Of a stretch of 64,000 bases of DNA, positions 5,702-56,600 are shown piece after piece. This DNA comes from Xestospongia bergquistia (taxonomy: Eukaryota; Porifera; Demospongiae; Haplosclerida; Petrosiidae), in contig OZ014411.1 in NCBI GenBank assembly GCA_963965975.1, positions 498,501-562,500 on the forward strand. Reading direction: 5' to 3'. Each line of letters opens with the position of its first letter. Position 1 is the stretch's first letter. Made by a program: the position numbers and the translations under genes. A model generated the notes under the pieces. That model was not told the origin of the DNA, searched no databases, and saw only the letters and a program-made list of their open reading frames with translations.

Positions 5702-8700
5702 CTAAATAAGTTATAACATTAGTGTCACCTTTAGTAAATTTGTAGGGAAAAAGTGAATGATACAACATAACATTCGTATTCTGTTAAAGTTACTTCATCA
5801 TAGATTATGTCTACCTAATATAAAATTACATATAACTGTCTTTAATAATAAACTACACCTCAAAAATTTAATATAAACTATGAAGTCATAACAACTACAT
5901 TTGCAGTATGTACATTATCACCAGTTATTGAAAGATTAGCAACAATGACACCTCAAATCTATTTGTTATTACTAAACACTTTGACTTTAAAAACAGATTT
6001 AAATTCACAAGTTATAATTGTGTTAACAAGTAATTTCGAAGAGATATAAAGAACAGTTAACATTGTATTTGTGGCCAGGTAAGGTTATATACATAAATGT
6101 TTAATTAACACCCCTTGTCCATTTTAATACCAGGTATATACAGAACTAAATGTGATGTGGGAAACATCAAATTAGTATAATCATGTACCTTGTCTTGAAC
6201 ATCCACTTGAACACCACGGTGTAGTAATACTTGTACTACTTTATCATGACCATTGTAACATGCTAAGTGCAATGGAGTTAAGCCATCCTAAATAAGATAT
6301 AACATTATTGTCACCTTTAGTATGGCAAAAGCAAATGATACAACATAACATTCATACTCTGTTAAAGTTACTTCATTATAGATTATGTCTACCTAATATA
6401 AAATTACATATAACTGTCTTTAATAATAAACTACACCTCAAAAATTTAATATAAACTATGAAGTCATAACAACTACATTTGCAGTAAGTACATTATCACC
6501 AGTCATTGCAAACTTAGCAACAATGACACTTCAAATCTACTTATTATTGCTAAACACTTTGAATATTAAAAACAGATTTAAATTCACAAGTTATAATTGT
6601 GTTAACAAGTAATTTCGAAGAGATATAAAGAACCGTTAACATTGTATTTGTGGCCAGGTAAGGTTATATACATAAATGTTTAATTAACACCCCTTGTCCA
6701 TTTTAATACCAGGTATATACAGAACTAAATGTGATGTGGGAAACATCAAATTAGTATAATCATGTACCTTGTCTTGAACATCCACTTGAACACCACGGTG
6801 TAGTAATACTTGTACTACTTTATCATGACCATTGTAACATGCTAAGTGCAATGGAGTTAAGCCATCCTAAATAAGATATAACATCATCGTCACCTTTAGT
6901 ATGGCAAAAGCGAATGATACAACATAACATTCATACTCTGTTAAAGTTACTTCATTATAGATTATGTCTACCTAATATAAAATTACATATAACTGACTTT
7001 AATAATAAACTACACCTCAAAAATTTAATATAAACTATGAAGTCATAACAACTACATTTGCAGTAAGTACATTATCACCAGTCATTGCAAACTTAGCAAC
7101 AATGACACTTCAAATCTACTTATTATTACTAAACACTTTGACTTTAAAAAAGATTTAAATTCACAAGTTATAATTTTGCTAACAAGTAACTTGGAAGAGA
7201 TTTAAAGAGCAGTTAACATTGCATTTGTGGCCAGGTAAGGCTATATAAATAAAACTTAAATCATAGCATTAATGAAAATATAAATTGAATTCCAAATACA
7301 ACTACATCTACAAATGTATTGTAGTAAGGATAATACCATCACTCATGTTATAAGACATTTAACACTTTCATAAACACATTATCAAATTCATTTGTGTTTC
7401 TATGACCAAAGCAACATTATTAAATTCTGTTGTGCTACTTAACTTAAAATGAACAAATGATATGTTACTGACCTCTTCTTGAACATCCACTTGAACACCA
7501 TGGTCTAGTAATATTTGTACTACTTTATCATGACCATTGGAACATGCTAAGTGCAATGGAGGTATGTCATTCTAAATAAGATATAACATTATTGTCACCT
7601 TTAGTAAAATTGGATGGCAAAAGCGAATGATAGAACAGAACATTCATACTCTGTTAGTTATTTCATCATAGATTATGTCTATCTAGTATAAAATTACATA
7701 TAACTGTCTTTAATAATAAACTATACCTCAAAACTTTAAAATAAAGTGTGAAGTCATGACAAATAAACTTGCAGTATGTATACTATCACCAGTCGTTATT
7801 ATTATATTCAAAGCACAAAGTTAACACGATCAATCTTCAATTAAATAATATATATTGTACATTATATGTGACTTGATTTGCAAAAAGGGACCACATCTGT
7901 CAAAATATTTGTGACCTGATTTGTTAAGACACTACTACTAAAACATACCAAACAACAGTTTTGCATACATATAGAATAGTTATGGATATATAGCAACTGT
8001 ATGTTTACAAAACTAAGATTTTTGAGATGTTTTAACAGTGGTTTGTTTACAAATCAGGTCACAAATGTTTTAACAGAAGTGGTCCCTTTTTGCAAATCAG
8101 GTCACATATAATTGCAGTGATATTTGACACTCTAACCAATAGTTTACTGTGATAGTCATATGTAACAATATAAACATAAAAGTCATGTACTTATCATGTG
8201 ATATTAAGTACATTACTAGAATAATTTGTAACATATAACATTATCTGCAAGTACTTACCTTATCCTGTATATTGGGGTCTGCACCAATACAAAGCAAACA
8301 ACTCATGATATTAATCTGTCCATTATTAGCAGCATGATGTAATATAGTCTTGCCATACTAAGTAGAGACAGAGAAAGTATCATATAATTTAATTACACTG
8401 TACTAAATCTACATGTATTTTTAGATAATAAATATCATTTGTAGATATCAGGTTCATATAACACAGTCACATGTACAATATAGAACTGTTTATCAGATAA
8501 TTGTGACATTTTTTACAGTTGTCATTCTTGATAGTATAATGTTAACCCTGTACAATAAATCTGGTATTACTATTTCTATGAATATTATTATAACTGTTTG
8601 TCATATTAATACATATTATTAAACAATGTCTACAAGTCAGTAATTATTATTATGTATATTATGTACTTACTTCATCTATAGTGTTAACATGAACAGAGCC

Positions 8701-9476
8701 ATCTTCTATGGCACTCTTTATTACATCAAGATCACCATTACGAGTTGCCTTAACAAGGTATTCCTCCTAATATAAAGAGTGAGACACACATTATACAAGA
8801 AATAACTTATAGTAGTATATTTTAGAACTATATCAGAGATATATATTACTAGACAACATTGATGATATGTAATCAATACATGTATTCATGTATATAATGT
8901 ACATGTACTTTACTCATAGTCTACTCCTGTTTTATCTACTAATATTTAACTGATAATAACATGTACTACCATAATACAAGTTTACTTGAACATCATGTAA
9001 CATCATGGAGACAGTGATAATAATTAAATAAAACAATGTACAGTTAATTATGATATTAATTTGTTTAGTGAGGAACTCTAATTAAGATAATTTTCAATGT
9101 CATGAATATTATTAATACTTTGTATATTATTCAAAGTATATCTCAATGATCTGTCATACAATATCTTAGACTACATATTAATTATCTATTTCTATATATT
9201 ATTGTTCTATTGTTCTATGTAACTATTAATACTATCTAATACTCCATGTAGTACTCATTGTCTCTATACTAATAGACCTAATATTACAATGTATTAACTA
9301 GTTTAATATAACATTACTTGTATCACATACACACACAGTGTCAACCTGTGAACTCAATCATATTAACATTGAAGTATATGCTATCATTATATAACAGTAT
9401 ATCTACTAAGTCATAGTGACTGTATTACTAGATCACTCTATAGTCATATATAGTAGGATCAGTTCATACTATTAAC

Positions 9477-9567
<91 letters not shown>

Positions 9568-18643: not shown

Positions 18644-21600
18644 TTAGTCGTTTTCATCAAATAGTAGTGATTCTCGTTTCATTACTACTGACACCACTGA
18701 CACTGAACTAGTTTTACAAACAAGTGCAGGTGATCCAGGACAAATTAAAGGAACCTCTGCATCATCTGAATTAGAAAGTGGTGCAGGCTTCTTGTACATC
18801 CTCTTGATTTTTGTGAATAGTTTTTGTATAGGATATTTTAGCAGACGATCCCAGACATGATAGAGGATAATGCCACAGAATACTACAAATGACACTAGTA
18901 CCATAGCAATACTTAACTCTTGACTTAGCTTTGACCTCTCACAGGTTTGTACATTCACATAAGCCATAAACATGAGGTTAAGAAAAAAAGACATCTCCAG
19001 ACAAGCCAAAGGTAAATGTCGATATATTCCTCTCAAAAGGAAGTACATTGATATAATAACAATTAAAATAGATGTTAACACATCTAAACTTATAGTAGCT
19101 TTAGTATCTAGAGAAACAACAAGTGCTAAGACAACACGAACTAGTAGTAAAAATCCAGTCCAAAAACGACACTTGTCCTTATATGGACCTCCATATGCAT
19201 CAAAGAAAGGTTTCATATACATCAAAAACTTTTTGCAGCAGCAAAAGTACTTTGATAGATGTCTTTCAAATAATGGTATAGTCAGGAGGTAGAAGGTGTA
19301 TGGAAAAATTAGTAAAATTAGTATAGCCAGTGAGAACAACAACAATGGTAGATGACAGAAACCTCTCAGATATTGGACATTAGCATCTACGTACCACCTC
19401 AATAATTTGACATTAGTCTTTCCATTACAGTGAATATTGGTGTGATGAAGGATCTGGAAAACAATTCGAATTAGTTTGGTATAAGAGAGAAGGATCATAG
19501 TGGCTAATACTGGAATTGCTTGCCTTCCCACAAGCCGAACCATTTTGCTGGAATACTGGGACAATATTATGATGAGTATTAGGAGAAACCAAACATAGCC
19601 TGGAAAGACAAATTGTAGCCATGCTTTATGACAAGAGTTCATACCATGAAAAAAACAAGTCTCAACACCCAGATCTAGATTAAGCCAGGAAATGAACTGA
19701 CTAAGAAATGTTATGGAATGGTTAGGGAAGAAAAGTGGTTCATATATTTTGACAACATTAGCATAGAATATAAGGCCATTGATTGTACCCACAGACACAG
19801 TTAGATTTAAAGAAATCAGAAAAGCTACCAATACTATACCAGTAACAGCAAACAAAACAATAAGAGCTAAGTAATCATTAGTACATTGCCCACATTGATT
19901 GGAACCTAACATGAGACTGAGTCCCTCATTACATTGTCCACAGAGTAGTCCAGATCGATTGTAAAGACACTGTGTATTGGGTGATGTGACTGTAAAATGA
20001 ATGTTGTTGTTGTTACAATAATCATAAGGACAGTTTTGATAAACAATAAGGCAGTCTGAGTCTTTTTCATAACCAATCCACATGTTACCATCTCTAGTTA
20101 TAATTTGAATGTTAACATCACAACTTATTGGAGGTCTTTTTAATTCAGATCTACAAACACAAGTGTTATTTACTAATGGAAACCCAATTGGACAAGACTC
20201 AATTGTAACATTAATGACTTTAGCATTATGGTCATGTAAAGGTTCAATATACGAACCTTCAAGTGTTGCATAGACATCTGTAGCATTTAACAAATCAGGA
20301 TTTGCTCTTAACTTGAAGGTTACATTAGTACAAGTTGCATTTAGTCTATTATTGTCAGTTTGCAGAGTGGATGAACTATCTGGTGATGACAATTTTATCA
20401 CACCCTTTGTTAAGCCAAATTTATTACCAACAGTAGCTAGTGATATATTGACATTAATCCCAGGCATTGCAGTAACATTCTTTTTCAAAATGGAGCAATT
20501 TGGTTTGTCTGATACACAAAAACACACTTGGATAGGATCTGATGACACTGCTGATACAACACCTTGTTGATGGTAATGAAAAAGATCATTGAATCTACAG
20601 TAGTCATTAATTTCACCTCCATACAAGACATAGCCTGAGATGTTAGCCTTATTGTTGACAAAATATAACCCAGCACTAGCATTAAATGGAATAACTTGAA
20701 TGGTACAACTTCTATGAAAGCCTGCAACGATTTGTGATACAAACAGCCCTCCACCTGATTCACTAGCATGATTATTAAGAAATGATATATTTGTATGTTC
20801 CTTTAGTAATAAGTTGGAGGATTTATATAAAGCAATACCTCCACCATAAATGCCAGAATTGTTTACAAATATACTATTTTTATCAAATGTTATTAGACTA
20901 TTGAAACTCACTAAACCAGTTGTGTTATGATTACTAACCTCAATTTTGTCAAAAATAACGTCATGAATGTTGACTATTTCCACAGCAGATTGATATACAT
21001 CATATCTGTTGTTTACTTTATTGAAAAGAAACGAAACATTTACAAAACGAATGCTAGTTGTTGAAAGAAACCCATAAGCAGAGAGATACAAACCTGATCC
21101 ATAGTCTCCAGTGTTTTTATATATTATGCAGTTACAAAACTTAATACTACCATTTCCGGCAGAAAGAATTGACACTCCTCCTCCAGTAACCTTAGAAGTA
21201 TTGTTATATACAACACAGTTACTAAACTCAATACTACCATTCCCATGTGAATCAATGAATATACCTCCTCCTCCAATATTGTGTGAAAACTTACTGTGTT
21301 CAATAACTACATCAATGTCAGTATCATACAGCAAAAAAGTTGTATATCCTAAACTCAATGTAAAGTTTGATTGCACAATATTAGCTCTAAACAGGCTATT
21401 AAGCTGGGTATTATAGTATATATATGCATTGCCTCCAAAATTCTCAGGAGCTCCATTATTAGCAAATGAAGAATAACCAATTAACACATCAAAAGTATTG
21501 ACTAGACAGAGTCCAAAACCAGAACCATTCTGGACTGATATCCATTCCAATGTGACATTAATGATGTCAACAAGGTGTAAGCTGTTGATAATTGCTTGGT

Positions 21601-22081
21601 CATGGACGTGAGTATCAAACATACAATTTGCTATTACTAGCGATTTCAATATAATGTTTCTGCTACTAGTAAATTGTATACCAGTTCTGTTGTTATCACT
21701 ACACATTATTACTGAGGTGGATTGCATAACTGTCTCATGAAAGCCTTGTTCTATACGACCCAGTCCTTCTAGAGTTATATTACTTATATTGCTGATATTC
21801 AATATACCTTGTAGAGTATGAGTTCCTTCTAGGAAGTAGAAGGCAGTATCATCAGTGAAGTAAGAACTATAGTCAGAAACATAGTAGGAGAGGTTATGAC
21901 AAGGTAAGTCAGTAGTAGGACAAGGTACTCCATTAGGAACTGCAAAGACATAATACTCAGAAGCAATGACATGTCCACTGAAAATATACAGTATAACTGA
22001 TGTTACATAATAGATATGATACCACCTAATGTTCGCACTGGGTCCAAAAGAACAACTTGAAATAGACAAAATTGTAGACAT
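18644..22081 (-). CDS. Large single-exon protein: beta-helix ectodomain plus ~9 membrane helices
   Basis: This is an intact 1145-codon frame. I start it at the ATG at 22081; upstream in-frame codons lack an ATG. A hydrophobic signal or anchor lies at about residues 20-42, ending near GHVIA. Residues ~60-500 are rich in Asn, Gly and Ser, with many N-glycosylation sites and repeated patterns such as GNGSIEFSNCVVYNNTS and GNGSIKFCNCIIYKNTG, typical of right-handed parallel beta-helix coils. A Cys-rich stretch (CGQCNEGLSLMLGSNQCGQC, ~720) precedes about nine hydrophobic helices between ~740 and ~1075. A cytosolic tail ends at the stop. I recall similar proteins as an expanded, uncharacterised family in sponges and some other invertebrates. 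A receptor or adhesion role at the cell surface is inference. Fragments of the family lie at 17262-17990 and 33570-33840. No intron is apparent, which is unusual among the neighbours. Confidence 0.88.
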   Translation of the reverse strand: MSTILSISSCSFGPSANIRWYHIYYVTSVILYIFSGHVIASEYYVFAVPNGVPCPTTDLPCHNLSYYVSDYSSYFTDDTAFYFLEGTHTLQGILNISNISNITLEGLGRIEQGFHETVMQSTSVIMCSDNNRTGIQFTSSRNIILKSLVIANCMFDTHVHDQAIINSLHLVDIINVTLEWISVQNGSGFGLCLVNTFDVLIGYSSFANNGAPENFGGNAYIYYNTQLNSLFRANIVQSNFTLSLGYTTFLLYDTDIDVVIEHSKFSHNIGGGGIFIDSHGNGSIEFSNCVVYNNTSKVTGGGVSILSAGNGSIKFCNCIIYKNTGDYGSGLYLSAYGFLSTTSIRFVNVSFLFNKVNNRYDVYQSAVEIVNIHDVIFDKIEVSNHNTTGLVSFNSLITFDKNSIFVNNSGIYGGGIALYKSSNLLLKEHTNISFLNNHASESGGGLFVSQIVAGFHRSCTIQVIPFNASAGLYFVNNKANISGYVLYGGEINDYCRFNDLFHYHQQGVVSAVSSDPIQVCFCVSDKPNCSILKKNVTAMPGINVNISLATVGNKFGLTKGVIKLSSPDSSSTLQTDNNRLNATCTNVTFKLRANPDLLNATDVYATLEGSYIEPLHDHNAKVINVTIESCPIGFPLVNNTCVCRSELKRPPISCDVNIQIITRDGNMWIGYEKDSDCLIVYQNCPYDYCNNNNIHFTVTSPNTQCLYNRSGLLCGQCNEGLSLMLGSNQCGQCTNDYLALIVLFAVTGIVLVAFLISLNLTVSVGTINGLIFYANVVKIYEPLFFPNHSITFLSQFISWLNLDLGVETCFFHGMNSCHKAWLQFVFPGYVWFLLILIIILSQYSSKMVRLVGRQAIPVLATMILLSYTKLIRIVFQILHHTNIHCNGKTNVKLLRWYVDANVQYLRGFCHLPLLLFSLAILILLIFPYTFYLLTIPLFERHLSKYFCCCKKFLMYMKPFFDAYGGPYKDKCRFWTGFLLLVRVVLALVVSLDTKATISLDVLTSILIVIISMYFLLRGIYRHLPLACLEMSFFLNLMFMAYVNVQTCERSKLSQELSIAMVLVSFVVFCGIILYHVWDRLLKYPIQKLFTKIKRMYKKPAPLSNSDDAEVPLICPGSPALVCKTSSVSVVSVVMKRESLLFDEND

Positions 22082-25000
22082 CGTCAGAGAAGACAAGCGG
22101 TTGAATTATCACTGAAAAAATGAGTTGTCCCAGCTTCGCCTACTCCGTACCTACTAATTAATTCATAGCGAGTTATTGATTATTCAATGATTATTTATTT
22201 ATGTAAACACTAATTTCAAAATGGTGGCAAATATTATTATGTTAGAGTTCTTTAATCTTTGTCTTTTCTTATTGACCTTAAGGTCCTTCTAAGTGGTTAG
22301 CTCCTGTTGATAACTGCTGTAGAGATATTTTTATTGATGTTTGCTTTCTTTGAAAACCTACACATTCAAAGATGGTTTTCTAACTAGCAACAAAAGTTAG
22401 GGCAACTGTTTTCATCATGAATGATTTAAGTCTAAGATATTATCTTGAAAGTTTATTTGCAATCCTGTTATTTGTATTTTATACATAAGGACTTGACAAA
22501 ATCATAATAGCAACTGAAATCATGTATTGGAAATGTTAACTGCATTGCTTTATTTGTTAGCTTGAAATCACAACTGTTTGGGGATTTAAAGTTATTTGTA
22601 GTGTATCAGCCTTCTGTCTGATTAGGTTCAAAACCCTCTCTTATGTACTTCTTTATTTATTAGGAAGGAAGGCATAGATTAGAGGGGTGCTGCTGCTTAC
22701 TATAATCACTATGCATGCTTGTAAGCTTACAAGCATGCATAGTAATTATTTGGTAAAACAAATTTGAAATGTGCCATCTACATAATTATATCTGACTCAC
22801 ACAATAGCTCAACAATCTTGTCAGTTCCAAATAGTATCAGCTTTTCATCTCCATCTTTTCCAGTTGTAGTGTGACAAGATACACATGTACAAGTATGTAC
22901 AAGGTACATAGGCACAAAAAGGACTTTCAAACATCAGAAAGATTGTTACAACAGTAAAATATTAATTATTACATCATAGGTTTTACTTAGAACGAAGTCA
23001 GTAATAGAAAATAATGATAACTTTGAGGCTAAAAAAAACAATGGGTCTTGTTGAATGATTTTGCTGTATTAACAGGAGTAACCTATGTGATTGTACAAAA
23101 TACAATTTTGCACATACATTAGTGTTACTGATATAGAACCATTTAGTATTGTTTTCTGTGGGGCATATAATGCAGAGTAGTGTCTATTCTGATATTTCAC
23201 TGTCCCCACAAGTTTATAAATGGTACTACTTACTTTTAATGTAGTTTTCTGAATGGAATACAAATAAACATACATACAGTGTTAATATACAGATGTATGT
23301 GTTAGCTACATACATCTTATCTAATGTTTTATACCTTTACTTGAACAACTGGACACTCAGTTCTATTAAACATAACAATTGATGTCATAAGTGTTATTTG
23401 TTACAGTATGTTTAACTAACGATGTTGAAGTCTTTGTTATGTGAATGCATAAATGGTTGGGATGTTTTGTTACATCAATAGTCTGAAGAGATTCATCACA
23501 ACTTCTATACCTAAAAAATTTATATTATATTAAACATAGGGACAAATCTATGACTGATCATGTCAAATAACAGGATTATATGTGCATGCCCCTCACAAAT
23601 CTAGTCTAGATATAGTCTGAATTATCTAACTCATCAAAAATCAAGTCCTGAACATAATTTTGATAGATGATGGAAATAATTGATATAATGATATAGTAAG
23701 AATATAATTATAATAGTTTATAGATAGTGTTGCGTAGACAGTAGTACATTGAGTGTTTGGAGAAGATATTAAGATTTGAGTGGTATTGAGGTACAGTAAA
23801 TACATTTACTATATTACATATGATATCAATAAATTCATTAACTAAGATTATGTGTCTTGGTTCAGAAAGAATATTATCCAGTATTTTATTAAGTGATACA
23901 TGTACTCTGGTTAGATGAGCAGTCAATTCTATACAAGGCTTATGTACAAACTTATGTTGTCATAACTACTTTTACCATTGTTCTTATTATTCTATTAGAC
24001 AATCATATCCATGATGTACATACAAACTATCCAATAAATTGATACATCAGATATAACGGAAAGTACGAATACATTTCATGGACAACTTTTAGTCATGACA
24101 GCAGAAGAAAAGAATATTGAAACAAGTAATGTCAGATATCAATATTACTTGTTCTTTATGCATAAATATGTGAAGATGCTAGCCAACCCTCAACATGATT
24201 TGTTTGAGTTTGGAACTCAATTAACAAAGACAATATAGCTGTTTTGTGTGACTGCAAATTGCTTTGGTCTACTACAGAATCTGCAAAATAAATTTGCTTT
24301 AGATATTCCCTTTCTTGTTGCATTTGGGTTTGTTACAATTTCCATGGTTTACAATACTCACTATAACTATTATATTATAGTCATATAGAGAGGAAGGGAT
24401 GGGCTGCCTTGCAAGACCTTGACATTAACACATAATAAAATCAACCACACTTTACATAAATTTATCTTCATTTTTGATATCTGCAATATAAATGTTCTAC
24501 TAGACCTTTCCTTGTTAATCAAAGGAACAGGTTTGTGTTCATTTTATTGTGTATATTCATCACATATTCCAGACATGCCAGTAACAAAGAAGAGGGTGAC
24601 ATCAGAGAAACACTTGATGGAATCAAAGAAGCTTGTTCTTTACTCACTTAATATGTACCTGATAAGAAACTACAGCTGTTTCACTGATATGATTATATAA
24701 GTGTAATATAAATTATATCTATGGTATTAGTTAAGGCCATTGATTTAAGGTTAGGGGATGGAGTCAGTGTTGCAATTATGTAGTATAGATTTTGATTCAA
24801 TGTATAATGGCAGATGAAGCAAATATGTTTATGCATTTCTTCTGTGGAAAAAATATCTTATATACTAGTATTAGAAGGATAATTATAATTGTGTCATAAT
24901 CTATATAGTTGATTGTTGTTTGTATGTACTTTTACAATTTTGTACACAGACTAAAACATGTAATCTGTAAGTTTCTCATTTATTTGTCTATAAATAGCAA

Positions 25001-28350: not shown

Positions 28351-28847
28351 GTATAAACACACACACATATATATTTACAGATATATTTGAGGAGGCTAAA
28401 TCCTAAACTATAAACAGCTAAAATTTTAACTTGCTCAAACAACACACACCTACAATCTATTGTTGTTACACAATTACAGTCAAACATCTCATCTTCATCA
28501 AAGACTTGACAATAACACTAATATCTTCACTGTTTGACATCTGGTATTAGTGAAAGCAAGAAAGACAAAACAGGTGTATAAATGTAAAACGTAGTTTGTA
28601 ATTAATTAATAATTAAACTAATTAATGTTGCAAAACTTGGGCGGGGCTCAAGTGTATAAAACGGCTGTATCATAACATTTAAGATGTGAATGATTCTGCT
28701 TTACTTGTTCACTTATGAACTCACAAATTTTAACACTTAATTACTGTTATATTATTATTATTATTTTATTATTTTTATTATTATTGTTATTAGTAATAAG
28801 TAGTAAATAATATTATTGTTAAAATACCATTAAAAAGGCCTGATTGT
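26846..28847. other. AT-rich stretch, no gene seen
   Basis: It contains a 25-bp direct duplication (gagcatcatctgagatgac, twice within 27457-27508) and a TA microsatellite at 28306-28340 followed by CA dinucleotides. No convincing exon was found. Confidence 0.55.
28306..28340. repeat. (TA)n microsatellite
   Basis: An uninterrupted TA run, followed by a short (AC)n. Confidence 0.9.
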
Positions 28848-29209
28848 CTAATTATGTATATAGTCCCCGCGTATATTATATATTACCTTCTGTATAGGTA
28901 CCTAAAGTAAATGAAAAATGACTTCATGTCTTATAGGTAATATTTCAAATTACTTTGTTTAATTTATAGTTATATTTGTTGCCAGCTTGTTTTGACTTTT
29001 TTCTGTTCAGTATCTATAAGAATGTTAAAAGTGTTACACTTATTACCCATTATATTATATATACTTACACCCAGACTGGCAGCATGGAAATGGCAGACTG
29101 ACTGCCCTACTCCCTTTGTATTCATGCATAAAGAGAAAGGGCAGTTAGTCTGCTTGCAATTATGTATACAGTCCCCACGTATATTATATATTACCTTCTG
29201 TATAGGTAC
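28848..29209 (-). CDS. Duplicated, alternative 3' exons of the micro-exon gene
   Basis: These are three further phase-0 exons downstream of the main stop at 29252. Exon c, 29069-29209 (starts VPIQKVIYNIRGDCIHN, 47 codons, GTAAGT donor), resembles exon 29376-29498 in its second half (KQTNCPF and GVGQ-VC patterns). Exon d, 28945-29013 (starts ILNRKKSKQAGNKYNY), ends with a stop, as does its twin at 29252-29320. Exon e, 28848-28901 (VPIQKVIYNIRGDYIHN then stop), is a shortened exon c. They result from a ~307-bp tandem duplication. Splicing from 29376 to exon c, then to d or e, would keep the frame and give other C-termini. Whether these exons are used is unknown. Confidence 0.5.
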
Positions 29210-29461
29210 CTAAAGTAAAAGAAAATGACTTCATGTCTTATATGTAATATTTCAATTTACTTTGTTTAATCTATAGTTATATTTGTTGCCAGCTTGTTTT
29301 GTCTTTTTTCTTTTCAGTATCTATAAGAATGTTAAAAGTGTTACACTTATTACCCATTATATTATATATACTTACACCCAGACCAGTAGCATGGAAACGG
29401 CAGACTAACTGCCCTACACTCTTTGTATTCCTGCATGAAGAGAAAGGGCAGTTAGTCTGTT
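28848..29461. repeat. ~307-bp direct tandem duplication
   Basis: 28850-29157 and 29158-29461 match closely, for example tagtccccgcgtatattata against cagtccccacgtatattata. Each copy carries a terminal exon pair. Each copy also has an inverted pair around gcagactgactgcc / ggcagttagtctgc that could fold into a hairpin inside the exon. Confidence 0.85.
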
Positions 29462-31097
29462 TGTACCGTTCCCTCCATTTCTTTGCACCATCTGAAGTCT
29501 TTACAAATGAGATATAAATGCAATGGTGACAAATAGCTATAATTGTCCTTACCGTCAGCTCATAATAGTGCTGAGAGCATATTATAATCTGTCAAAGAAG
29601 AAACGAAATAGTGATATTGTAATTGCTAACTGAACTTACACTTTTCTTTATACCCCTGTAATTTCGTCCACTCTTGTGGCACCTCTCCACCTGACAGTTG
29701 GTTTCCTGTAATAAGTAAGTGAGTGATTGAGTGAGTAAAAAGTTTAACGTAGACTTACAACATCATGGTGACCATTTTTATGGGAGGAAGGATGGGGCTC
29801 AGTATCAAACTACATGAAGAATTGCACACAATATTAATGTATGTGTATGTTTGTGACTTACAGGACAGTGAACCTTTGCATGAGAGGAGGGGTGGGGCTC
29901 AGTATCAATCTACATGAAGAATCACACACAATATTAATGTATGTGTATGTTTGTGACTTACAGGACGGTTAAGTATTGCTTGGGAGGAGTGATAGAGCTT
30001 AGCATCAAACTACATGAAGAGTTGCGTACAATATCAATGTATGTGTATGTTTGCGACTTACGGGACAGTGAACCATTACTTGAGAGGAGGGATGGGGCTC
30101 AGTATAAAACTACATGAAAAATTTTAAAAAATAATGTATGTGTATGTTTGTAACTTACAGGAGAGTGAACCTTTGCATGAGAGGAGGGATGGGGCTCAGT
30201 ATCAATCTACATGAAGAATCGCACTCAATATTAATGTATGTGCATGTTTGTGACTTACAGGTCGGTAAACCATCGCTTGGGAGGAGTGATAGAGCTTAGC
30301 ATCAAACTACGTGAAGAGTTGCGCACAATATCAATGTATGTGTATGTTTGTGACTTACAGGAGAGTGAACCTTTGCATGAAAGGAGGGATGGGGCTCAGT
30401 ATCAAACTACATGAAAAATTTAAAAAAAATAATGTATGTGTACGTTTGTGACTTACAGGAGAGTGAACCTTTGCATGAGAAGAAAGATAGTGCTCAGTAT
30501 CAATCTACATGAAGAATCGCACACAATATTAATGTATGTGTATGCTTGTGACTTATAGGAGAGTGAACCTTTGCATGAGAAGAAAGATAGTGCTCAGTAT
30601 CAATCTACATGAAGAATTGCACACAATATTAATGTATGTGTATGTTTGTGACTTACAGGACGGTAAACCATCATTTGGGAGGAGTGATAGAGCTTAGCAT
30701 CAAACTACATAAAGAGTTGCGCACAATATCAATGTATGTGTATGTTTGTGACTTACAGGATGGCGAGCCATTGTTTGAGAGGAGGGGTAGGGCTTAACAT
30801 CAATCTACATGAAGAATTGTACACAATATTAATGTATGTGTATATGAGTGTGGTATGTGTGTGTGTGTCCATGCACTTATTGTAGACATGTACTTGTTGC
30901 AGAAATGCATGCAATGGACTATGACTGTTGTATAAACCTACAGAGGAAGTCAGTGGTAGCATTATAGACCTATCCAACTTCCAATTCTTCAAAATGTCCT
31001 AAAATGCCAGAAAGGTCACAATCATTGTTGTGTGTCATTTTATTGAAATTTTACTCACATCATCAAAATGAACATTTGCGTTTTCAGGAGTTGTCAT
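29252..31097 (-). CDS. Micro-exon gene with 11 tandem 48-51-nt exons (unrecognised protein)
   Basis: All exons are phase 0. Start exon: 31059-31097 (MTTPENANVHFDD, ATG at 31097). Repeat exons: 30757-30804, 30657-30704, 30557-30604, 30457-30504, 30359-30406, 30259-30306, 30159-30206, 30062-30109, 29962-30009, 29862-29909 (48 nt each) and 29759-29809 (51 nt). Final exons: 29640-29705 (22 codons, starts ETNCQVERCHKSGR), 29553-29588, 29376-29498 (starts TSDGAKKWRERYKQ) and 29252-29320, ending in a stop. Each repeat exon encodes 16 residues in two alternating types, IDTEPHPSSHAKVHCP and FDAKLYHSSQAMVYRP. Introns are ~52 bp with GTAAGT donors and CATGTAG acceptors. Predicted protein ~287 residues. 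The 30557 exon has ATAAGT instead of a GT donor and may be skipped. No signal peptide or membrane helix is seen. Cys/His residues in the last exons hint at metal binding, but no family is recognised. Confidence 0.65.
29759..30850. repeat. 100-bp minisatellite coinciding with exon-intron units
   Basis: Eleven units start 97-103 bp apart (29759, 29862, 29962, 30062, 30159, 30259, 30359, 30457, 30557, 30657, 30757). Each contains the acceptor, a 48-51-nt open exon and the donor of the micro-exon gene. Unit types alternate, so growth was by more than single-unit duplication. Confidence 0.95.
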
Positions 31098-31147
31098 CTA
31101 CACAAGAAACAAGTACACCAGTAACATAAATAGTAATTGAAACTTAC

Positions 31148-31234
31148 AATTTTCAGAGCAATCTAAAATGGACGTGCAGAAGGCCAAGGCGTCAAGCTAC
31201 AACAACACTCTGAGGTGACGATTCTTTGCACGTG
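31148..31234 (-). promoter_or_regulatory. Putative 5' UTR exon end and E-box of the micro-exon gene
   Basis: A GTAAGT donor reads on the minus strand at 31147, just downstream of a segment without an ATG. The next acceptor (TTGTGTAG) leads straight into the start codon at 31097. A CACGTG E-box lies at 31229-31234. This suggests a non-coding first exon with a promoter close by. No TATA box is recognised. Confidence 0.35.
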
Positions 31235-34789: not shown

Positions 34790-36000
34790 TAGTTATCTCT
34801 CTTACAAAATTTGTTTCATCAGATCACTTCACAAAATCACTTGAAATTTCTTGTGGGGTTAGCTATATAAGTCCTTGTTTAATGACGTTCGCTTTACTGA
34901 TCTAAAATGTTGTATTAACATATTTAACATAATGGCCTTTGTTCTACAAGTAAATACACATGGAAATTAATGAATCATTTCTGTTTCCTTACAGAATTTG
35001 TTGCACTGCACAAAATCACTTCTAATTTCTTTGGAGTTAGCTATATAGGTCCTTGTTAAGTGATATTAGAATTACTGCTTTAAAATTGTATAGTCTTAGA
35101 TTTTTAAAGATGTTTATTTAATACACTTTGTTCTAGTAGCAAACTTACTTGTAAATTGATGAATCTTTTTAGTTTCTTTACAGACTTTACAGACTAAACC
35201 CTAAACACTTACTCTATTTAACCAGACTTTAACAATATTTCAGACATTTTCCTCTTAAACTTTAAATTTGCATGGATGGACACAGTCTAACTTTTATATG
35301 TACACTTAAAAACCGACCGATTCTATTCACTTCAAACCAGCCGTATGGGATTCAAGATCTGCAGGAGTCTAAGCAAGTCATTGTAATTACATGTTTACAC
35401 TACATAAAATGTTAAGTTATCACTTTAAAATGTATATGGAAAGCCATGAATTGTTTTAGTTTCCTTACAGAATTTGTTCCACATCACAAAATCACTTGAA
35501 ATTCCTTAAAGAGTTAGCAAAATATGTCCTCGTGTAGTGTTGTTAGTGTTACTGCTTCAAAAGGTAGCATTAGATTTTTAAAGATGTTTATATGATCCCT
35601 TATTTGTACTAGTAAATCTACATGGAAATTAATGAATCCTTTTTTGTTTCCTTACAGAATCAGTTCAACTGAACATAATTTCTTAAAATTTCTTATGGAG
35701 TTAGCTATACATGTCCTTTTTTAGTGACGTTAAGTTTACTGCTTTAAAATATAGTATTAGATTTTTAAAAATGTTTATATAATGCCCTTTGTTGTACTAG
35801 TAAAATGTATATGGAGATTAATGAATCCATTTATGTTTCCTTACAGAATTTGTTCCACTGCACATAATTACTTAAAATTTCTTATGGAGTTATCTATTCA
35901 TGTCCTTGTTTAGTGACATTAGTTTTACTGCTTTAAAATGTAGTATTAGATATACTTATATAATCCCCTTTGTTGTACTAGTAAATGTATAACTAAAAAC
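34790..36000. repeat. ~187-bp tandem array, about six diverged units, interrupted once
   Basis: Units are marked by tttccttacagaatttgttc near 34983, 35458, 35647 and 35837, a diverged first unit near 34800, and a degraded one near 35172. Each continues with ttagctatatangtccttg-like and gatttttaaagatgttta blocks. About 35165-35440 is disrupted and contains the fragment related to the 26.5-kb frame. The cttacag motif looks like a splice acceptor, but no downstream frame is open. Confidence 0.75.
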
Positions 36001-38861: not shown

Positions 38862-39935
38862 TTGTTGTATAAAGATATGACACGTCAATCATTATCTTTC
38901 AGAGCTGACACAATTCAATGGTCAATAGAGCTCAAGGAAATCAAAACAAAAGAGTTCATACCATATGACAAACCTCATGGTCCAGCTAATAACATAAATT
39001 CATACTCACTGCTTGATCTATTTTACCTTTTCTTCACACATGACATTCTCAAATATCTAGCAGACCAGACAAACCTCTATGCTTATGGCTGTTTAGGATA
39101 ATATTTTGAATCATGGGATAAGGTAACAGCAGATGAAATAAAAGCTTACATGGGTTTTATGATATTGATGGGTCTCATTCAACTACCTGCTTTAGGTGAT
39201 TACAGGCATAAGGATTCAATGTTCCATTATGAGCCAATAGCAAGTAGGATTATTCGGAGACAATTTCTTGATATTCATCATTTTCTTCATTTTGTTGACA
39301 ATAGAGACTTACCACACTACGGTGAGCCAACTTATAGTAAGCTACAAAAAGTAGAACCAATTCTCACATATATGAATACAAAATTCAGTTTGTCATGGAT
39401 TTAAAATCTGGATGAGGGCAAATACTACAATAGGGTATGTGTGTGAATTAGACCATTAAACTGGCAAAAAGGTGACAAAATTGAGAAGGGTCTAGGTGCT
39501 GCAGTTGTCTTGAAATTGACAGAAAAAATAAACTCCCATTTTCCATCACGTTTATTTCAATAACTTTTTCACTGGGATTGATCTCCTTTTAGACCTGTTG
39601 AGAATAAAGATATATGCATGAGGGACAATGAGATCAGATAGATGAGGCTTTCCTACAACATTAAGTCCATCATGAAAAAGAGTCTCTCTCAGAGAGGAGA
39701 CACCAATAGTGTTCAAAATGGAAACTTAGTCATTACTATATGACAGGACACAAAGCCCTTCTGTTGTGCATCAACAAATGGTAATCCAAATAACAAGGTT
39801 TCCACAACAAGGAAGTTAAGAAATGGGTCAAGAATAACAATACCTTGCCCTAAATGCAATTTCTCTATAAAATAAATTCATGGGAGGAGTAGATAGAAAC
39901 GACCAATTGAAAGGATACTATAATGTAAGGTTAAT
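38862..39935 (+). pseudogene. piggyBac-type transposase relic
   Basis: A frame from about 38880 reads SLLDLFYLFFTHDILKYL, meets a stop at 39099-39101, and continues in the same frame with DKVTADEIKAYMGFMILMGL, RRQFLDIHHFLHFVDNRDLP and PTYSKLQKVEPILTYMN, ending at 39402. This order is that of the DDE_Tnp_1_7 (piggyBac) family N-terminal half. After that only broken pieces remain, with a kinsWeE.iEttN-like trace near 39880 where piggyBac proteins have the GGVDR region. Several stops and shifts make it non-functional. TTAA-flanked ends were not found. Confidence 0.75.
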
Positions 39936-43180: not shown

Positions 43181-45175
43181 GGCTGTCCAAGTTGAGAAGA
43201 GTCCTTCATTAAAAAAAGGTGTTTTATGCATGGAATGTAAGGTGAGGAATTTCCTTCCCTATTATACACAATTAGCGCTGAAGCACATTTTAATTATATT
43301 CATTACTTGTTCATGTGAATGTCATGCGAACACACCACGTTTTCTCTCGTGTTTGTGAACATGCCAACTGGAAAGACATTGAGAGTGCAAACAAAGGAGG
43401 TTGTTGTGAATGTCTATGAATATTTTGAGGCATTTGGCAGGCGTAAATGGACTGAAGGATCTCTGAAACGAACCTCTGAGAGACTTAGCACAGGGGGAGC
43501 TGCCTTTTCAAATCCAACGAAGAGGTACAGATTCTACAGACGCCTGTTAGTTGATGATTTTGATCGTGAAGCCATCAGACGAAAAATATACCACCTCTAT
43601 AGGTGCAAAGAGCATGTGACACTATCCAAGTTGTTTGTTGTGTTGAAAGAGGATAACCTCTTTCACGGTCAGAGGTCAACCCTCCACACCTTGCTAAGGG
43701 AAATGGGTTTCAAGTGAGTCACCATAACTTTGGATATAATGCCCATTAATATTGTACTTTATAGACATAAGCAAGTGGATGACAGACGCCACTACTATGA
43801 ACAATCATGACTTATGGAACAGAGGCACTATTACCTTTGTCGAATGATGACGAACCGCCAAGAGAATAGGCCAGTTGTTTACCTTGATGAAACCTGGGCC
43901 AATGTTCATGTTGGTAAGGATTGTGCTTGGGTGGAGAGGGATGATGTGACTGGTGGAACCCTTGGTGGTATAAAAAGGCCTCCTGGAAAGGGTGCACAGC
44001 TCATTATTCTTGGAGCTGGTGGCGAGAATGGTTGGATTCCCAATACCACTCTCATATTCAGATCCAAAAAATAATGGTGATTATCATGATGATATGACTG
44101 CTGATCATTTTGAGGAGTGGTTTGGTACCAAACTTCTCACAAATGTTCCACCTAACAGTCTTATTGTCATGGATAATGCATCATATCATAGCCGTCGTAG
44201 TGATCCTGTTCCAGTCAAAAGTTGGACAAAGCAAAAGATGCAAGATTGGCTTCAGGCAAAGGGAGTTGAATTCCCAACAAATGCCTTGACTGCTGAATTG
44301 TATAGCATCATACAAAGATTGAAACCTACCCTTCGCTATGTTGTTGATGACATGGCTGCTGCTACAGGTAAGAACTTGTCAAGATAGCCTTTGTATTTAT
44401 TGATATGTACATCATACAGAGAATGAGGTGGTCCGACTCCCTGTTGTTCACTGCACTCTCAATCCTATTGAGTTGGCATGGGCACAGGTTAAAGGTCACA
44501 TCAAGGCCAACACTTGTACATTTAACCTCCATGAGGTTGAGAAGTTGGCATGGGAGGGTTTCGATGTTGTGACACCTGACTGTTGGAAGAGCCTCATTCA
44601 ACATGTTAAGATCCACTTTGAAGACCACTATTGGTCTAATGATGGCCTCTATGAAGAGTTCGTGGATGAGTTCATCATTCGAGTTGGAGGTGAATCGGAT
44701 GAGTCTGATGATTCGGATCAATCTGATAGTTCTGATGACGATTAGTTGTAGATATTCTTAGTCTTCCTTCTTTGTCGAAAGGTCTTTTTCAAAACCATGG
44801 TGGCTTTATAGCTGCCTCAAATCACAAAAGACGATACCTGGTGATTATTTTAATAATAATTGTTATAATATACCATTTGTTCATATATTTAGAATTGTAA
44901 TTTTGAATTGCAACGTGACAGATGGCTGATTTCTCAAAGTGAAAATTGTTTTTTATTAAACACTCGAAGGTGTGCAATTTGAAGTATGTGAAAGGTATGC
45001 CATTGAAAATGTATGGAGTTATCTAGTTTGGTACTTTCTCGTAGTGCTAGAGCCAAATTTTATATATAAAATGCGCATTTGCGAGCTAAATTGACTGTGC
45101 AAGTTTCATGTTGATAGCATGTAAAACGGCAAAGTTATTCACATGTCTGGGTGGCTCTTCTTAACTTGGACAGCC
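43181..45175 (+). mobile_element. IS630/Tc1-mariner-type transposon, ~2.0 kb
   Basis: Ends are inverted: ggctgtccaagttgagaaga at 43181 and the complement of tcttcttaacttggacagcc ending at 45175. Both ends are flanked by TATA (TA target duplication). It encodes one transposase with two small introns, now inactivated. Related deletion derivatives lie at 45242-45712 and 51011-51275. Confidence 0.9.
43361..44745 (+). pseudogene. DDE transposase with two ~51-bp introns; one stop and one frameshift
   Basis: ATG at 43361 (MPTGKTLRV; an in-frame ATG also exists at 43319). The N-terminal helix-turn-helix region is followed by a 51-bp intron (43714-43764) joined at a Lys codon. Catalytic motifs are present: VVYLDETW (~43878), VMDNASYHSR (~44168) and LNPIELAWAQVK (~44460), giving D, D and E. 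A second intron is 44368-44419. The C-terminus is acidic (ends with runs of DES) and stops at 44743-44745. An in-frame TGA at about 43808 and a one-base loss in the A-run at about 44070 inactivate it. Otherwise the frame is well kept, so inactivation is recent. Small host-like introns in the transposase fit long residence in this lineage. Confidence 0.85.
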
Positions 45176-45954: not shown

Positions 45955-48652
45955 ACTATAGTAGGAATAGGGGGGGGCAACTTGCCCCCCCCCAATATTT
46001 TGTCAGGGGGAGCATAGCCCCCTCAATAGTATTGCAACAGCAGATGCAGATGTACATGACTCATGAAGCATGAAGTGTGATAACACAAATAGTGCTAATG
46101 AACTAGGTGATAGCACATGCTTCAAAATGGATGCTAAGAGAAAAAGACAAGCTGAAAGTAAATCCACTACAATTACATCATTCTTTACAAAAAGAAGTAA
46201 ACTCACCTCAGAAGAATCTTGTAAGTAAAGTTGTTATCATTTGTCATGTGTCAAAAATAATTATTTCTAGTACCTGTGACTACTGAATTAGCTTTGGAAA
46301 TAGCTGATGACATTGACCGTTCTTAAAATGATGATGAAGCCACAGAAGGGAGTGATGATGAAGAAAATCAAGATGATGAGGCTGTCTTTATGACAAATAC
46401 ACCAATTACAGTGTCTTCTTCTGACTTTCAATCAGAATGTTGTATGCACGCTTGCTGTTGTAATAATACACTTCAATTATCTCAACCAGTTGACCCAACG
46501 ATATTAAAGAAAACCGAGAAGTTTTATGGTTCTATTAAGAGGACCTTTAATCCAACATGGTACCAGTCACACCCATGGATTCATTTGTGTACATCAAATT
46601 TTAAAGTCTATTATTTCTATTGTAAGTATGTAGTTCACAACTTACAAATGTGAGCTGGTATGAAACTGGATCCCGCCTTTTACAAAAGTCGGTTTTTCAA
46701 ACTAGAAGAAAGGTGTAGAAAAATTAAAAGCCCATGAAGCAAGTGCTGCACACAACGATGCTTTTATTGCGTACGAGTCATAAAAAAAACACCTGTGTCA
46801 AACCTCATTTCTAAAAGCTTCGCAAATGACCAATTGAAGCATCGTAAAAGTTTTATAAAGCAGCTAGCAGCACTTAAATTCCTACTTCGCCAAGCCTTGC
46901 CTGTTAGAAATGAACACGCAGGAGGGTCAAATTTGACAGTATTACTAGACAGTGTACTTGAAGAAAGTCAATGGCTGAAGAATGGTAAATACCATTCACC
47001 AGAGGTAATTAATGAGCTGACTAAAATAATGGCACACAAAGTTCTACGGTCTCTGTTATCTGATATTTCATCACGTAAATGGTATGCCATCATGGCAGAC
47101 AAAACTAGAGACATTTCTAACCATGAACAATTAGTGTTATGTATTCGAAGTGTATCGGAGGATTATGTCGTACATGAAGATATGATTGGTATGTATCGGT
47201 TAGAGGATATCACATTGTCTACAATTTATGCATGTTTAAAAAATAGCCTTGTTAGAATGTGTCTAATGATCGAGAACTGTAGAGGTCAGGCTTATGATAG
47301 TGCTCAACCATTTCAAGGACACATAAATGGTGTTGCCAAGAAATTTAAAGACAGTACTGCATCAGCAATTTCTGTTCATTGCATAGTCCACTGTGTAAAT
47401 TTGTGCCTTCAAGAAATATCCAGAAACAGTAAACCTATAAAAGATGCTTCATATTTTTCAATGGAGGTGATTCAATTAATTAAGTATTTCCCAAAGCGTC
47501 AAAGTATTTTTGAAACAATAAAATCTCAACAAAATTCATCGTCAACAGCTGGAATTAGAACCCTATGTCCTACTAGGTGGACTGTGCGCTCTGGTGCCAT
47601 GCAAGCTATTATTTCTAATTATGAAGAGTTACAGGACGCAATGGAAGTATCATCATACGGGTCAGATGATTGTTCTCGAAGAGCAAATGGAATAATGGCT
47701 TTAATGGAACGATTCTCTACTTACTTTGGTTTGAAGCTTTCTATACTAATAGTCAGTATAACAGAGCATATGTCTATTCATTTGCAAAGTAAAGAAAGGT
47801 CAGTAGAAGATGGCTATTTCCTCGTAGATACTTACCTGAAATCTCTAAAAAAATTGAGATTGGACACTGAATTCAAAAAGTTTTTTGACACAGTGAAGCA
47901 AGACTATGTTAACATATGTGACCCACCTACTCTTCCTCGACGCCGCCAAATTTCTTGAAGGATAGATACTGGATCTTCACAGCACAAGTTTACTTCCGTT
48001 GATGAATTCTACCAAAAAGAATATTTTGAAGTGATAAATAATGTAACTGGCCTACTGGAAAATCACTTTCAACAAGAAGGATTTCTATTAATAAGAAAGA
48101 TGGAACGCTTACTTTTAGATAGTGCTAATTATAGAGGTTGTTATACCTAACGAAATAAAGAATCTGTATAGTGCTGATATAGATTTTGATAAGCTTTCAT
48201 TGCAGCTTAAATTGCTACCTGATACAATAAAAGCTGTACCCTTACAAGGAATAAGGATTACTCAAGTAACAAAGCTGCAAACAATCTGTACACTTTTTGA
48301 GGAGCAACATAGCCTTAAAGTCATACTGTCAGAAATACACAAACTTATTCGTATCTATTTAACAGTGCCCATTACAACAGCAACAGCAAAACGAAGTTTT
48401 TCAGCTTTAAGACGAATGAAGACATACTTACGAAACTCAATGACACAGCAACGACTCTATCACTGTATGATTCTACATGTTCACTGTGAAGAAACAGATA
48501 AACTTAATATAATAAAAGTTGTGAAAGAATTTGTTGAGAAAAATGATAGGAGGAAACAGTTTTTTGGACAATTTTGTTGACTATTGAAAACTACATGTAG
48601 CTCATTTAATATAGTTGCTCCCCCCAATATATAAATGATTCCTACTCCACTG
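45955..48652 (+). mobile_element. hAT-type transposon (ZMYM1-like), ~2.7 kb
   Basis: The right end reads gattcctactccactg up to 48652; its complement starts CAGTGGAGTAGGAAT, like common animal hAT ends. The left end near 45955 has the related tagtaggaatagggggg followed by C/G runs. An ttgctcccccc block occurs inside the right end. An 8-bp target duplication could not be confirmed. Confidence 0.65.
46127..48580 (+). pseudogene. hAT transposase related to zinc finger MYM-type protein 1
   Basis: First exon from ATG 46127 (MDAKRKRQAESKSTTITSFF), donor at 46221, 50-bp intron, resumption at 46271. An acidic linker with a stop (about 46324) leads into a TTF-type zinc-finger region (NPTWYQSHPWIH, ~46550). 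A stop at 46651-46653 and shifts around 46690-46790 follow. The frame 46795-47958 contains the DUF4371-like and RNase H-like region (HCIVHCVNLCLQE; LCPTRWTVRSGAM). After another break, 48122-48580 has the hAT dimerisation motif (VPITTATAKRSFSALRRMKT, ~48367). The domain order matches ZMYM1-like proteins. At least three disruptions make it a pseudogene, although most of the core is intact. Confidence 0.85.
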
Positions 48653-53658: not shown

Positions 53659-56600
53659 TCAGTATTTAGAAGATATCTTTGGATTTGCTAAGAAATCTGG
53701 TATAGTCTTAGCTAAAGCGGGCTCATTGACAGGATATTCTGTAATGACATCAATAAGATTCCTCCAGGTCACATCTGATGGTTGTGTAATCCAGGTCTGC
53801 AAGACTTCAGAAAGCTTCCGAGTGTCATTATAACGAGCATCATTTTCAATAGATTGAATTCTTTCATCAGGTATTTCCAAGGCTTCTCCAATCTCTCTCC
53901 ATTTATGTTGAATAGGACCAAGGACACGTTGAAGATGAACTTTTTTAGGTTCTTTGTCTGAAGATAAAAACATCATTATTGCAATATTATGATGTTAACA
54001 ATATAATGACTGCAATAGAATGATAGAGTAATATACTAAGGATATTTGATTAGCTACTTTAGCCTTAGAGGGCACATTTAAAACAATAGATGTATTGTAA
54101 AAAGTAGCTGTACTATAAAATTATATATTACAATAATTATATTTATACATTTGAACTATGCAAAATGCTCTAAAACAAAGATTACCTAATAGATTTTCTA
54201 CTACTTCATTAAAGAAAGATGAATCAGTAGTATCACTTGATGACCCTACATTAAATGAGAAATGAGAATAGAACTAATGACAATTAATTAGTCATAATTA
54301 ATTACCTGAAATAGGAGTACTTGAACTAACAGCTCCTGCTACAGGAGAGCCTAGGGAAAAAACACAGAGGCAAAACATAACTGAACAATCTCAAAAGATA
54401 TGAAACGACCATTTTCGTGAGATCTAACCAATGATTTTTAACCATTACGTTTAACAACATGCTTCAAACAGAAGGTTATTATATTAATTCAGTATATATT
54501 TGTCATAATATTGACAAAAACATGTCTAAGGAATAAAAAACTCTGAGCTGTTATACCTGATGAAGGAGACAAGGTGGGGTTAGTAGTTACTTCTACTATA
54601 TCTAACACTATCAAATAGTATGTAATACATAACAAAATAAATGTAGACAAACCTTGGTATTTCTTGGAATGTGGTTTAGAGGTGTGTTCCATGTCATCTT
54701 TTGTTAATGTAGGGTAAGATACATCCTGTACATGATGTAGCACAATAACATAATGTTAAAAATTAAAACTACATGTATATTGTTACGTGTACACTAAAAG
54801 TAAATAAGAAGTAATACATTTATTTACCAAAGGTTTAGATTCAGCAAAAACATATTCACTATACACATCAGGTCTCTTTAGAAACGTATGAATATCATCA
54901 CTAATTTGACGATTGTTTATAATTGGACCTTCCACTTCCTTTAATAATGCTTTCCATGTGGCTTTACTTGATTTCTCATCTAGCCATTTATTGATCACAG
55001 TTGACAGGTTCATCTCTGTTGAGTTATTGCTTATTTTCAAGCTCTCTAATTCTCCAGTGTTGACTTCAAGTGAATCCCCAATAAGGTACCATTTATCTTT
55101 AATAGGCATTAATAAAGCTAGAACGTCTTTCTTTTTAGGAACTTTAGAAAGAATCTTGTCAATATCTACAACAGTATATACACAGCCTTAAAATCATATT
55201 TTAAACAGTATTATAGTAATAATGACAAACTTACAAACAAGCCATTAACTCTTAATAGTCTTACCTAATACATTTCCTACTAGTGTATTAAGATATGATG
55301 AATCAGTAGTGTCATTTGATGTTCCTATGTTATATGAGAAATGAGAATATCAATAGTAACAATGTTTAATAAATTACTTGAGGAAGTATTTAAGCTAGCA
55401 ATAGTTACTACTGTTTTATCAGACGCTATCAGATAATATGTAATAAAATAATATATCATTATACAAATAAAGACTAACCTTGGCATGTCTTCTCAACAAG
55501 TGATTTAGAGGCATGTTTAATGTCATCATCAGTTAATGGAGAATCAGCAAGGTAGGCAAGATCCTGTACATGATGTACATAGAGCAGTACAATAAGATAA
55601 AATTTAAAATTAAAACTACATGTATATTGTTACATGTACACTAAAAGTAAATAAGTAACAGTACATTCACTTACCAAAGGATTACGTCCAGAAAAGACAC
55701 TCAAACGGCTACAGTGCTCCTTTACAGAGATGTGAGTACATTCAATAGATGATAAGAATGAATGACCACAGACATCTTGAATGTGTTGAAGATAATCATC
55801 CCGAACTTGTAACTCAGCATTACTTGTATTGAATAGAGCTTTTGTTACCAAAGGAGCAATGTGAAGAAAAGGATCTTTATTTCCAACAATTTCTTTGATA
55901 TCAATTGTAATGCTATCTGTGCTGGTAACTTTGTCTTTAGTAAGAACAGCAAGAGCAACATCATGTATTATATAAAGTGTACGTTTGCAGACCTCAAGAG
56001 TACGAGCAGTAGATACCTGATCTGGTGCAATCATATATTCATCACTTGTACATGAACATAACTGCTCCTTAAGACTCATGACTTTCTTAATAACTAAGTT
56101 AAAAACTTGGCGACTTTCTTCCATTTCTTTGTTTGATGTAAGTACTGTAACACAACGATTGTGTTCAGATACTTCAACAACAACCTCAAATTTGTTTTTC
56201 CAGTATATACCATTAGTCCATACTGTACAATGACGAGCTAACTTCTGTACAGCAGGATTAGTTTCATTAATTATACCAGGTTTTCTTCGAGAAGGGAGGC
56301 AGTAAGTGTAGGCAAGGAAAAGGAGAAGGACATGGAGAAATCTTGTAGAGAGAAATTCATTAGGATCAGGACACCACAGACACCATCCTAATCCATTCTC
56401 TATTTTGATATCAGTGGGAGGTTCAGCACTGACAAGTGCTGGGAAAAAAAGGAGCTCATCTAATGGCAGAGGTATTGATGCAGATATGTTAGTTTCAAGA
56501 TCACCAATTGTACTTGACTCTATCATGTGACAAAACTGCAGACTTCTAAGAAAACCAACTAACATATCAGTATCGTGATCAGGAAATGCTTTCTTGATAG

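Follow-up and report, generated by a model that had tools for sequence, protein, structure and literature searches.

Tandemly repeated exons of 81 bases were reportedly described in Schistosoma by Davis in 1988. Among the systems closest to the one considered here, the LRR genes of Tetrahymena are characterized by tandem exons of exactly 90 bp separated by phase-2 introns, with a variable number of units and with thousands of such genes in the genome; ectopic recombination and retrotransposition have been proposed for these arrays (PMC6564038). The micro-exon genes of Schistosoma combine very short exons (6-81 bp), mostly multiples of three, with a signal peptide and with long introns (0.1-5 kb), and some of their proteins are fast-evolving (PMC10526429, PMC4350168). 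The PEVK portion of titin is described as a Pro-rich region encoded by repeated exons that changes by exon duplication and differential splicing, with 74-109 exons in the region in the mammals studied (PMC6469411). A contrary case is provided by earthworm metallothionein genes with minisatellite repeats, whose duplicated exons are absent from the final transcript (PMC12783039).

Here we describe an array of 48-nt micro-exons from the sponge Xestospongia bergquistia, found in a stretch of 64,000 nucleotides (C1:498501-562500; hereafter the window, meaning the whole stretch of DNA that was analysed). In its general type the array goes with the Tetrahymena, schistosome and titin cases, but by the features tested it belongs to none of them. 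It resembles the Tetrahymena LRR arrays in its constant exon length in tandem, uniform intron phase and variable unit number, whereas its exons measure 48 nt and lie in phase 0 (90 bp and phase 2 in Tetrahymena), it apparently encodes a linker instead of an LRR domain, and it is found at three loci of a sponge instead of in a ciliate. Like the described Schistosoma micro-exon genes it presents many short exons that could be skipped in frame (18 exons, between 36 and 141 nt long and each divisible by three), although two of them, Cc and Cd, are longer than the published range of 6-81 bp; unlike those genes, it has array introns of 49-56 nt, no visible signal peptide, and exons that are near copies of one another in tandem. 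With the PEVK region, as described, it shares repeated exons encoding a Pro-rich region whose make-up is altered by exon duplication; PEVK, in contrast, belongs to one giant muscle gene, and the likeness is one in kind. The present array is set apart by the 48-nt phase-0 units, the introns of ~52 nt and the unrecognized protein family, exon arrays being already known in kind. Searches of titles and abstract openings, with subscription journals mostly outside their coverage, found no report of micro-exons or tandem exons in sponges.

The gene is read on the minus strand as a phase-0 coding model running from 31097 to 28848, with exons e2 and e3, the eleven micro-exons u1-u11, exons Ca, Cb, Cc, Cd and Ce, and a stop codon at 28848. 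Its features, and one block beyond its 3' end, are as follows:

31059..31097, minus strand: exon e2 (39 nt), with the start codon, MTTPENANVHFDD, donor GTGAGT, and acceptor TGTGTAG before it
30942..30998, minus strand: exon e3 (57 nt), donor GTAGGT
30872..30949, minus strand: conserved stretch, mainly the intron past e3, CCATTGCATGCATTTCTGCAACAAG, kept in relatives
30757..30804, minus strand: micro-exon u1 of the gene model, IDVKPYPSSQTMARHP
30657..30704, minus strand: micro-exon u2 of the gene model, FDAKLYHSSQMMVYRP
30557..30604, minus strand: micro-exon u3, IDTEHYLSSHAKVHSP, donor position ATAAGT
30457..30504, minus strand: micro-exon u4 of the gene model, IDTEHYLSSHAKVHSP as in u3
30359..30406, minus strand: micro-exon u5 of the gene model, FDTEPHPSFHAKVHSP
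30259..30306, minus strand: micro-exon u6 of the gene model, FDAKLYHSSQAMVYRP
30159..30206, minus strand: micro-exon u7 of the gene model, IDTEPHPSSHAKVHSP
30062..30109, minus strand: micro-exon u8 of the gene model, FYTEPHPSSQVMVHCP
29962..30009, minus strand: micro-exon u9 of the gene model, FDAKLYHSSQAILNRP
29862..29909, minus strand: micro-exon u10 of the gene model, IDTEPHPSSHAKVHCP
29759..29809, minus strand: u11, final micro-exon of the array, FDTEPHPSSHKNGHHD(V), 51 nt up to the donor GTAAGT
29640..29705, minus strand: exon Ca (66 nt), ETNCQVERCHKSGRNYRGIKKS, C-x4-C
29553..29588, minus strand: exon Cb (36 nt), IIICSQHYYELT, C-x2-H
29376..29498, minus strand: exon Cc (123 nt), conserved Cys/His, ...TNCPFSSC...QLVCRFH...
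29069..29209, minus strand: exon Cd (141 nt), second copy of the Cc core
28848..28901, minus strand: terminal exon Ce (54 nt including the stop), VPIQKVIYNIRGDYIHN then stop
28604..28721, plus strand: block lying past the gene's 3' end, with GGGCGGGGC (GC-box) and TATAAAA, conserved in several relatives by reading of the sequence

Every one of the 18 model exons is a multiple of three and in phase 0, in agreement with the earlier note on this DNA, and the protein of ~287 residues that it predicted is approached by the 284-285 residues obtained when u3 and the duplicated exon are omitted; the maximal form, with u11 taken as 48 nt, has 347 aa. A further exon upstream of e2 ends at 31148, with a GTAAGT donor at 31147, and counterparts of e2 were read in four related loci (L009, L012, L019 and L026). 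The counterpart of e3 in relatives lacking the array is a Pro-rich hinge exon, and the GTAGGT donor of e3 recurs in a chaperonin gene of the same genome. Exon Cd originated in a 307-bp tandem duplication spanning 28850-29463. Judged by eye, the N-terminus (MTTPENANVHFDDDILKNWK) is without a hydrophobic stretch that could mark a signal peptide. The conserved stretch past e3 yielded 20 fuzzy matches over the window and the paralogous loci, of which 13 hold TGCATG somewhere inside; a role of this motif as splice enhancer was considered and dropped, since conservation in the relatives extends over much of the intron and chance may account for at least one of the matches.

The array proper occupies ~29759-30849 on the minus strand, a narrower span than the 29252..31097 first assigned to it, position 29252 being no array boundary. 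It comprises eleven units of ~100 bp, each with an acceptor, a short open exon and a donor position as previously noted, with exons running from 30804-30757 (u1) to 29809-29762 (u11); TRF gives a period of 100 with 10.7 copies at 29780-30843 (score 1330). The acceptor is exactly CATGTAG in nine of the eleven units, while the claim that every unit carries it fails for u2 (TATGTAG) and u6 (CACGTAG). GTAAGT lies immediately past the 48 nt in nine units as well. The remaining two are u3, where ATAAGT marks a lost donor, and u11, which carries GTTGTAAGT with GTAAGT three bases further on and is best read as an exon of 51 nt, which is divisible by three as well; the exons of 48-51 nt and the single lost donor reported before are thus both recovered. 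With its donor lost, u3 is probably skipped in splicing, and reading it on through its intron leads to a stop just within the following exon. The last unit represents a distinct type, present in all three array loci, and in the window it has three extra bases before the donor, which its counterparts in L009 and L010 lack. A higher-order period of 297 scores above the basic one (1490), and units three apart are more similar (0.859) than neighboring units (0.820), so that blocks of three units were probably duplicated.

The genome searched comprises 146.46 Mb in 21 contigs, and its introns and gene content mark it as eukaryotic. With the window stretch as query, at least 61 matches were obtained (40 of 52 first-look candidates scored), and among the scored candidates the array part matched at only three places, namely the window itself, L009 (C1:474663-476163) and L010 (C1:828503-829588). 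The L009 array used as query recovered the same three loci along with three short matches outside the array (all six candidates scored). The unit counts are 11, 10 and 6 respectively, 27 in total. In seven of the eight relative stretches read, an intron separates the hinge exon from Ca and the array is absent, the eighth (L011:2150) being without the hinge; the intron end in these array-free relatives resembles, by eye, the end of the unit intron. Among the eight, the start exon was observed in L012, L019 and L026, while L023 has a start exon without ATG and a hinge that holds a stop.

In light of these observations, we propose that the locus probably belongs to a gene family of many copies, Cys/His-rich and zinc-finger-like, its tandem 48-nt phase-0 exons serving as a linker of tunable length and the array having arisen by tandem exon duplication, with splice sites and exon length held over the peptide and with the copies partly decaying. 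The array sits between the N-terminal part, after the counterpart of the Pro-rich hinge, and the Cys/His-containing C-terminal part. It may have originated in the tandem duplication of a segment made up of the 3' end of an old intron and one exon, and could later have grown in single and multi-unit steps through unequal exchange. The Pro/Ser/His-rich linker that it encodes is probably disordered.

A possible if unlikely alternative is that of a plain minisatellite within a dying gene copy, where the repeat unit would merely enclose a fossil exon and the array would now be neutral. The higher-order repeat structure fits such a history, and so do the lesions seen in the array copies. L009 has suffered a 4-base insertion in exon Cc with a resulting frameshift; in L010 the gene match stops just upstream of the first remaining unit, the 5' part being missing in the stretch examined, and one array exon contains a stop. 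The TATA box (TATAAAAAGAGCTTGG or a near form) that lies upstream of the first donor in L009, L012, L019 and L026 is absent from the window copy, which places the expression of the latter in doubt. The array copies thus appear to be partly decaying at present. As a separate observation, L010 contains at 5088-9500 frames resembling, by eye, the gag, protease and reverse transcriptase of an LTR retrotransposon, which begin where the array match ends.

The exon lengths and splice sites, on the other hand, speak against a plain minisatellite. None of the 27 units has a frame-breaking exon length (by donor position 26 exons are of 48 nt and one of 51 nt, GTAAGT directly following the 48 nt in 25), whereas the array introns vary between 49 and 56 nt, with six of 24 differing from 52; the regular spacing of the units indicates that none was missed. 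When the 24 inner units of the three loci, which also form the diversity set, are placed on a tree, the ten splice columns show one change against ~14 expected, the mean across the other 90 columns being 1.42 (permutation p 0.001). The donor columns alone give p 0.023-0.025, although the unit intron has two more six-column stretches that are equally quiet, and the acceptor columns alone give p 0.034, a conservation partly built in because the unit search demanded a GTAG acceptor; both values are nearly unchanged on exon-only or intron-only trees. By eye, about 5-6 independent indels are found in the introns and none in the inner exons (P 0.01-0.02 if the risk is even). The exons hold one stop in 432 codons, in the damaged L010 copy, which weighs little against a minisatellite since about two are expected by chance, and the scarcity of stops was discarded as evidence of constraint for the same reason. 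The chaperonin gene mentioned above has introns of similar size (47 and 49 nt) and reads as a single open frame once these are taken out, so introns of 52 nt are not unusual for this genome. Judged from the sequence, this evidence appears to favor real splicing over a plain minisatellite; the earlier note's picture of frame-neutral, expandable exon cassettes gains from the 27 exons at three loci, the conserved splice columns and the growth by unit and multi-unit duplication.

Another alternative, which we regard as quite improbable, is a generator of diversity akin to the schistosome micro-exon genes, in which alternative inclusion along with diversifying selection would produce many isoforms and alleles. 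The cassettes are indeed frame-neutral and, as had been noted, the exons are more diverse than the introns (0.189 versus 0.102 in pairwise comparisons of the 24 inner units). Pairwise dN/dS is above 1 within all three loci (1.1 in the window, 3.98 in L009 and 1.44 in L010, with the stop-bearing unit excluded) and reaches 1.75 between the window and L009, but such values count a few old changes repeatedly over pairs that are not independent. In line with the earlier note, the window and L010 diverge more in the C-terminal exons (23 of 225 positions) than in the intervening introns (4 of 105; Fisher p 0.053). When changes are placed on the whole-unit tree, there are 52.5 nonsynonymous changes over 37.0 sites, 16.5 synonymous over 11.0 and 58 in the intron interior over 40.8, or 1.42, 1.50 and 1.42 per site. 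Exons and introns hence change at equal rates on this tree, a result also expected of a neutral minisatellite; its omega of 0.95, and that of 1.04 on the exon tree, argue against a diversity generator. The intron tree yields an omega of 1.54 in its favor, but it requires 107 nonsynonymous changes, many more than the exon tree, and its omega would be inflated if exons and introns were reshuffled (recombined) between units. The last units compared across loci (0.46) and the C-terminal exons within the array copies (pN/pS 0.38, 0.78 and 0.60) also run counter to diversification, as does the lack of a signal peptide visible by eye; for an active generator at this locus, the missing TATA box of the window copy, the frameshift in L009 and the lost 5' part of L010 are further obstacles. 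Positive selection, to which the pairwise values pointed, is not borne out by the whole-unit and exon trees and was set aside, and it is kept as a rival on account of the intron tree. The suggestion of selection for variety is thus not consistently borne out, the omega being 0.95, 1.04 or 1.54 depending on the tree. We read the array peptide as evolving about freely, and propose that selection acts on the splice sites and on the length of the exons more strongly than on the peptide.

In the C-terminal part the coding signal is distinct. Exon Cc has 53 matches in the genome, 26 of them without an internal stop, some copies yielding two matches. In a hand-picked sample of 15 of these 53 (14 stop-free and one with its stop codon skipped), the pooled dN/dS amounts to 0.27 for the gene frame, whereas the two remaining frames of the same strand give 1.20 and 0.94; the mirror frame of the opposite strand, which shares codon positions, gives 0.30. 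Beyond the Cc donor the values for the gene frame (0.51) and frame 1 (0.49) are alike, so that the coding signal fades at this donor. A C-terminus read through it (GVSIYNIACNKC) looks conserved by eye; as the gene frame is there no better than frame 1, that reading was rejected and the donor retained in the model. The C-terminal exons form a Cys/His-rich domain under past purifying constraint, and the constraint is weaker in the array copies, by the pN/pS values given above, than in the Cc set. The C-x4-C, C-x2-H, C-x4-C and C-x2-H motifs are presumably zinc-binding, as judged from motif patterns. Exon Cc also contains (29376-29498) an inverted repeat, CAGACTAACTGCCC / GGGCAGTTAGTCTG, whose arms code for QTNCP and GQLVC.

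The protein family remains unrecognized, as the earlier note had it, after Pfam, PDB profile and protein searches. Pfam returned weak matches only (E 0.026-0.14 over four families), THAP, SBP and C5HC2 being below their curated score, and no match on the array, for which the query was a typed chimeric protein with two array exons. The best hit of the PDB profile search was not significant (E 0.75), Rfam gave zero matches within the window, and no homologues outside this genome were found among the proteins searched, where a spliced gene is easily missed.

A plus-strand gene, having its promoter at 28604-28721 and its exons read the opposite way, is highly improbable: the GC-box and TATA-like block on that strand, the short plus-strand frames (one common to several near-identical copies) and the absence of stops in 432 codons of opposite frame 0 of the array exons agree with it, whereas the exon end has, by eye, no plus-strand donor and only ~25 nt would be left for an intron, the other plus-strand ATG frames differ greatly from one relative to the next while the Cc peptide of the minus strand is common to them, and the gene-frame dN/dS also opposes it, though the mirror-frame value leaves this point indecisive on its own. 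The 28604-28721 block is, as a candidate promoter, one that could drive an antisense or neighboring transcript.

Returning to the tunable-linker gene, each array exon has 16 codons, and the gain, loss or skipping of a unit would therefore keep the frame, so that the array would set the length of the linker. A linker in which length and not sequence matters would be the simplest account of frame-keeping exons that coexist with free substitution. Each of the eight 52-nt introns of the window array, if retained, leads to a stop at residue 35, shortly after the next exon begins, and mis-spliced RNAs would thus not yield long aberrant proteins; intron 4 (50 nt), when retained, gives no stop in the next exon. 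A more far-reaching version, which we consider unlikely, is that of a hypermutable minisatellite acting as an in-frame exon series, where unequal exchange would vary the number of 16-residue modules between alleles, alternative splicing would vary it between transcripts, and intron retention would lead to an early stop, placing a ladder of linker lengths on the Cys/His-rich domain. In this compact example the splice sites and the exon length seem to be kept while the peptide is nearly free, which would allow testing whether selection acts on the length of a protein rather than on its sequence. The array further suggests how an exon, together with the end of an intron, could become a repeat unit, a path from one exon to an array that might be traced across copies in one genome.

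Elsewhere in the window, a 189-bp tandem repeat of 2.8 copies at 35426-35951, each copy with an acceptor-like site TTTCCTTACAG, could be a second duplicated exon, though no donor was seen by eye. On the minus strand, 18644-22105 encodes a single-frame protein of 1153 aa that has no Pfam match at E 0.001 and belongs to a large family, with 321 database proteins, itself included, at E 1e-5 among 7991 scored. Also on the minus strand, the region 53659-57735 holds a frame with a Death domain (PF00531) and one with ankyrin and sub-cutoff Roc matches. Possible transposon remnants lie on the plus strand at 39102-39404, 43974-44387 and 46738-47958 (DDE_Tnp_1_7, DDE_3, below cut-off, and DUF4371).
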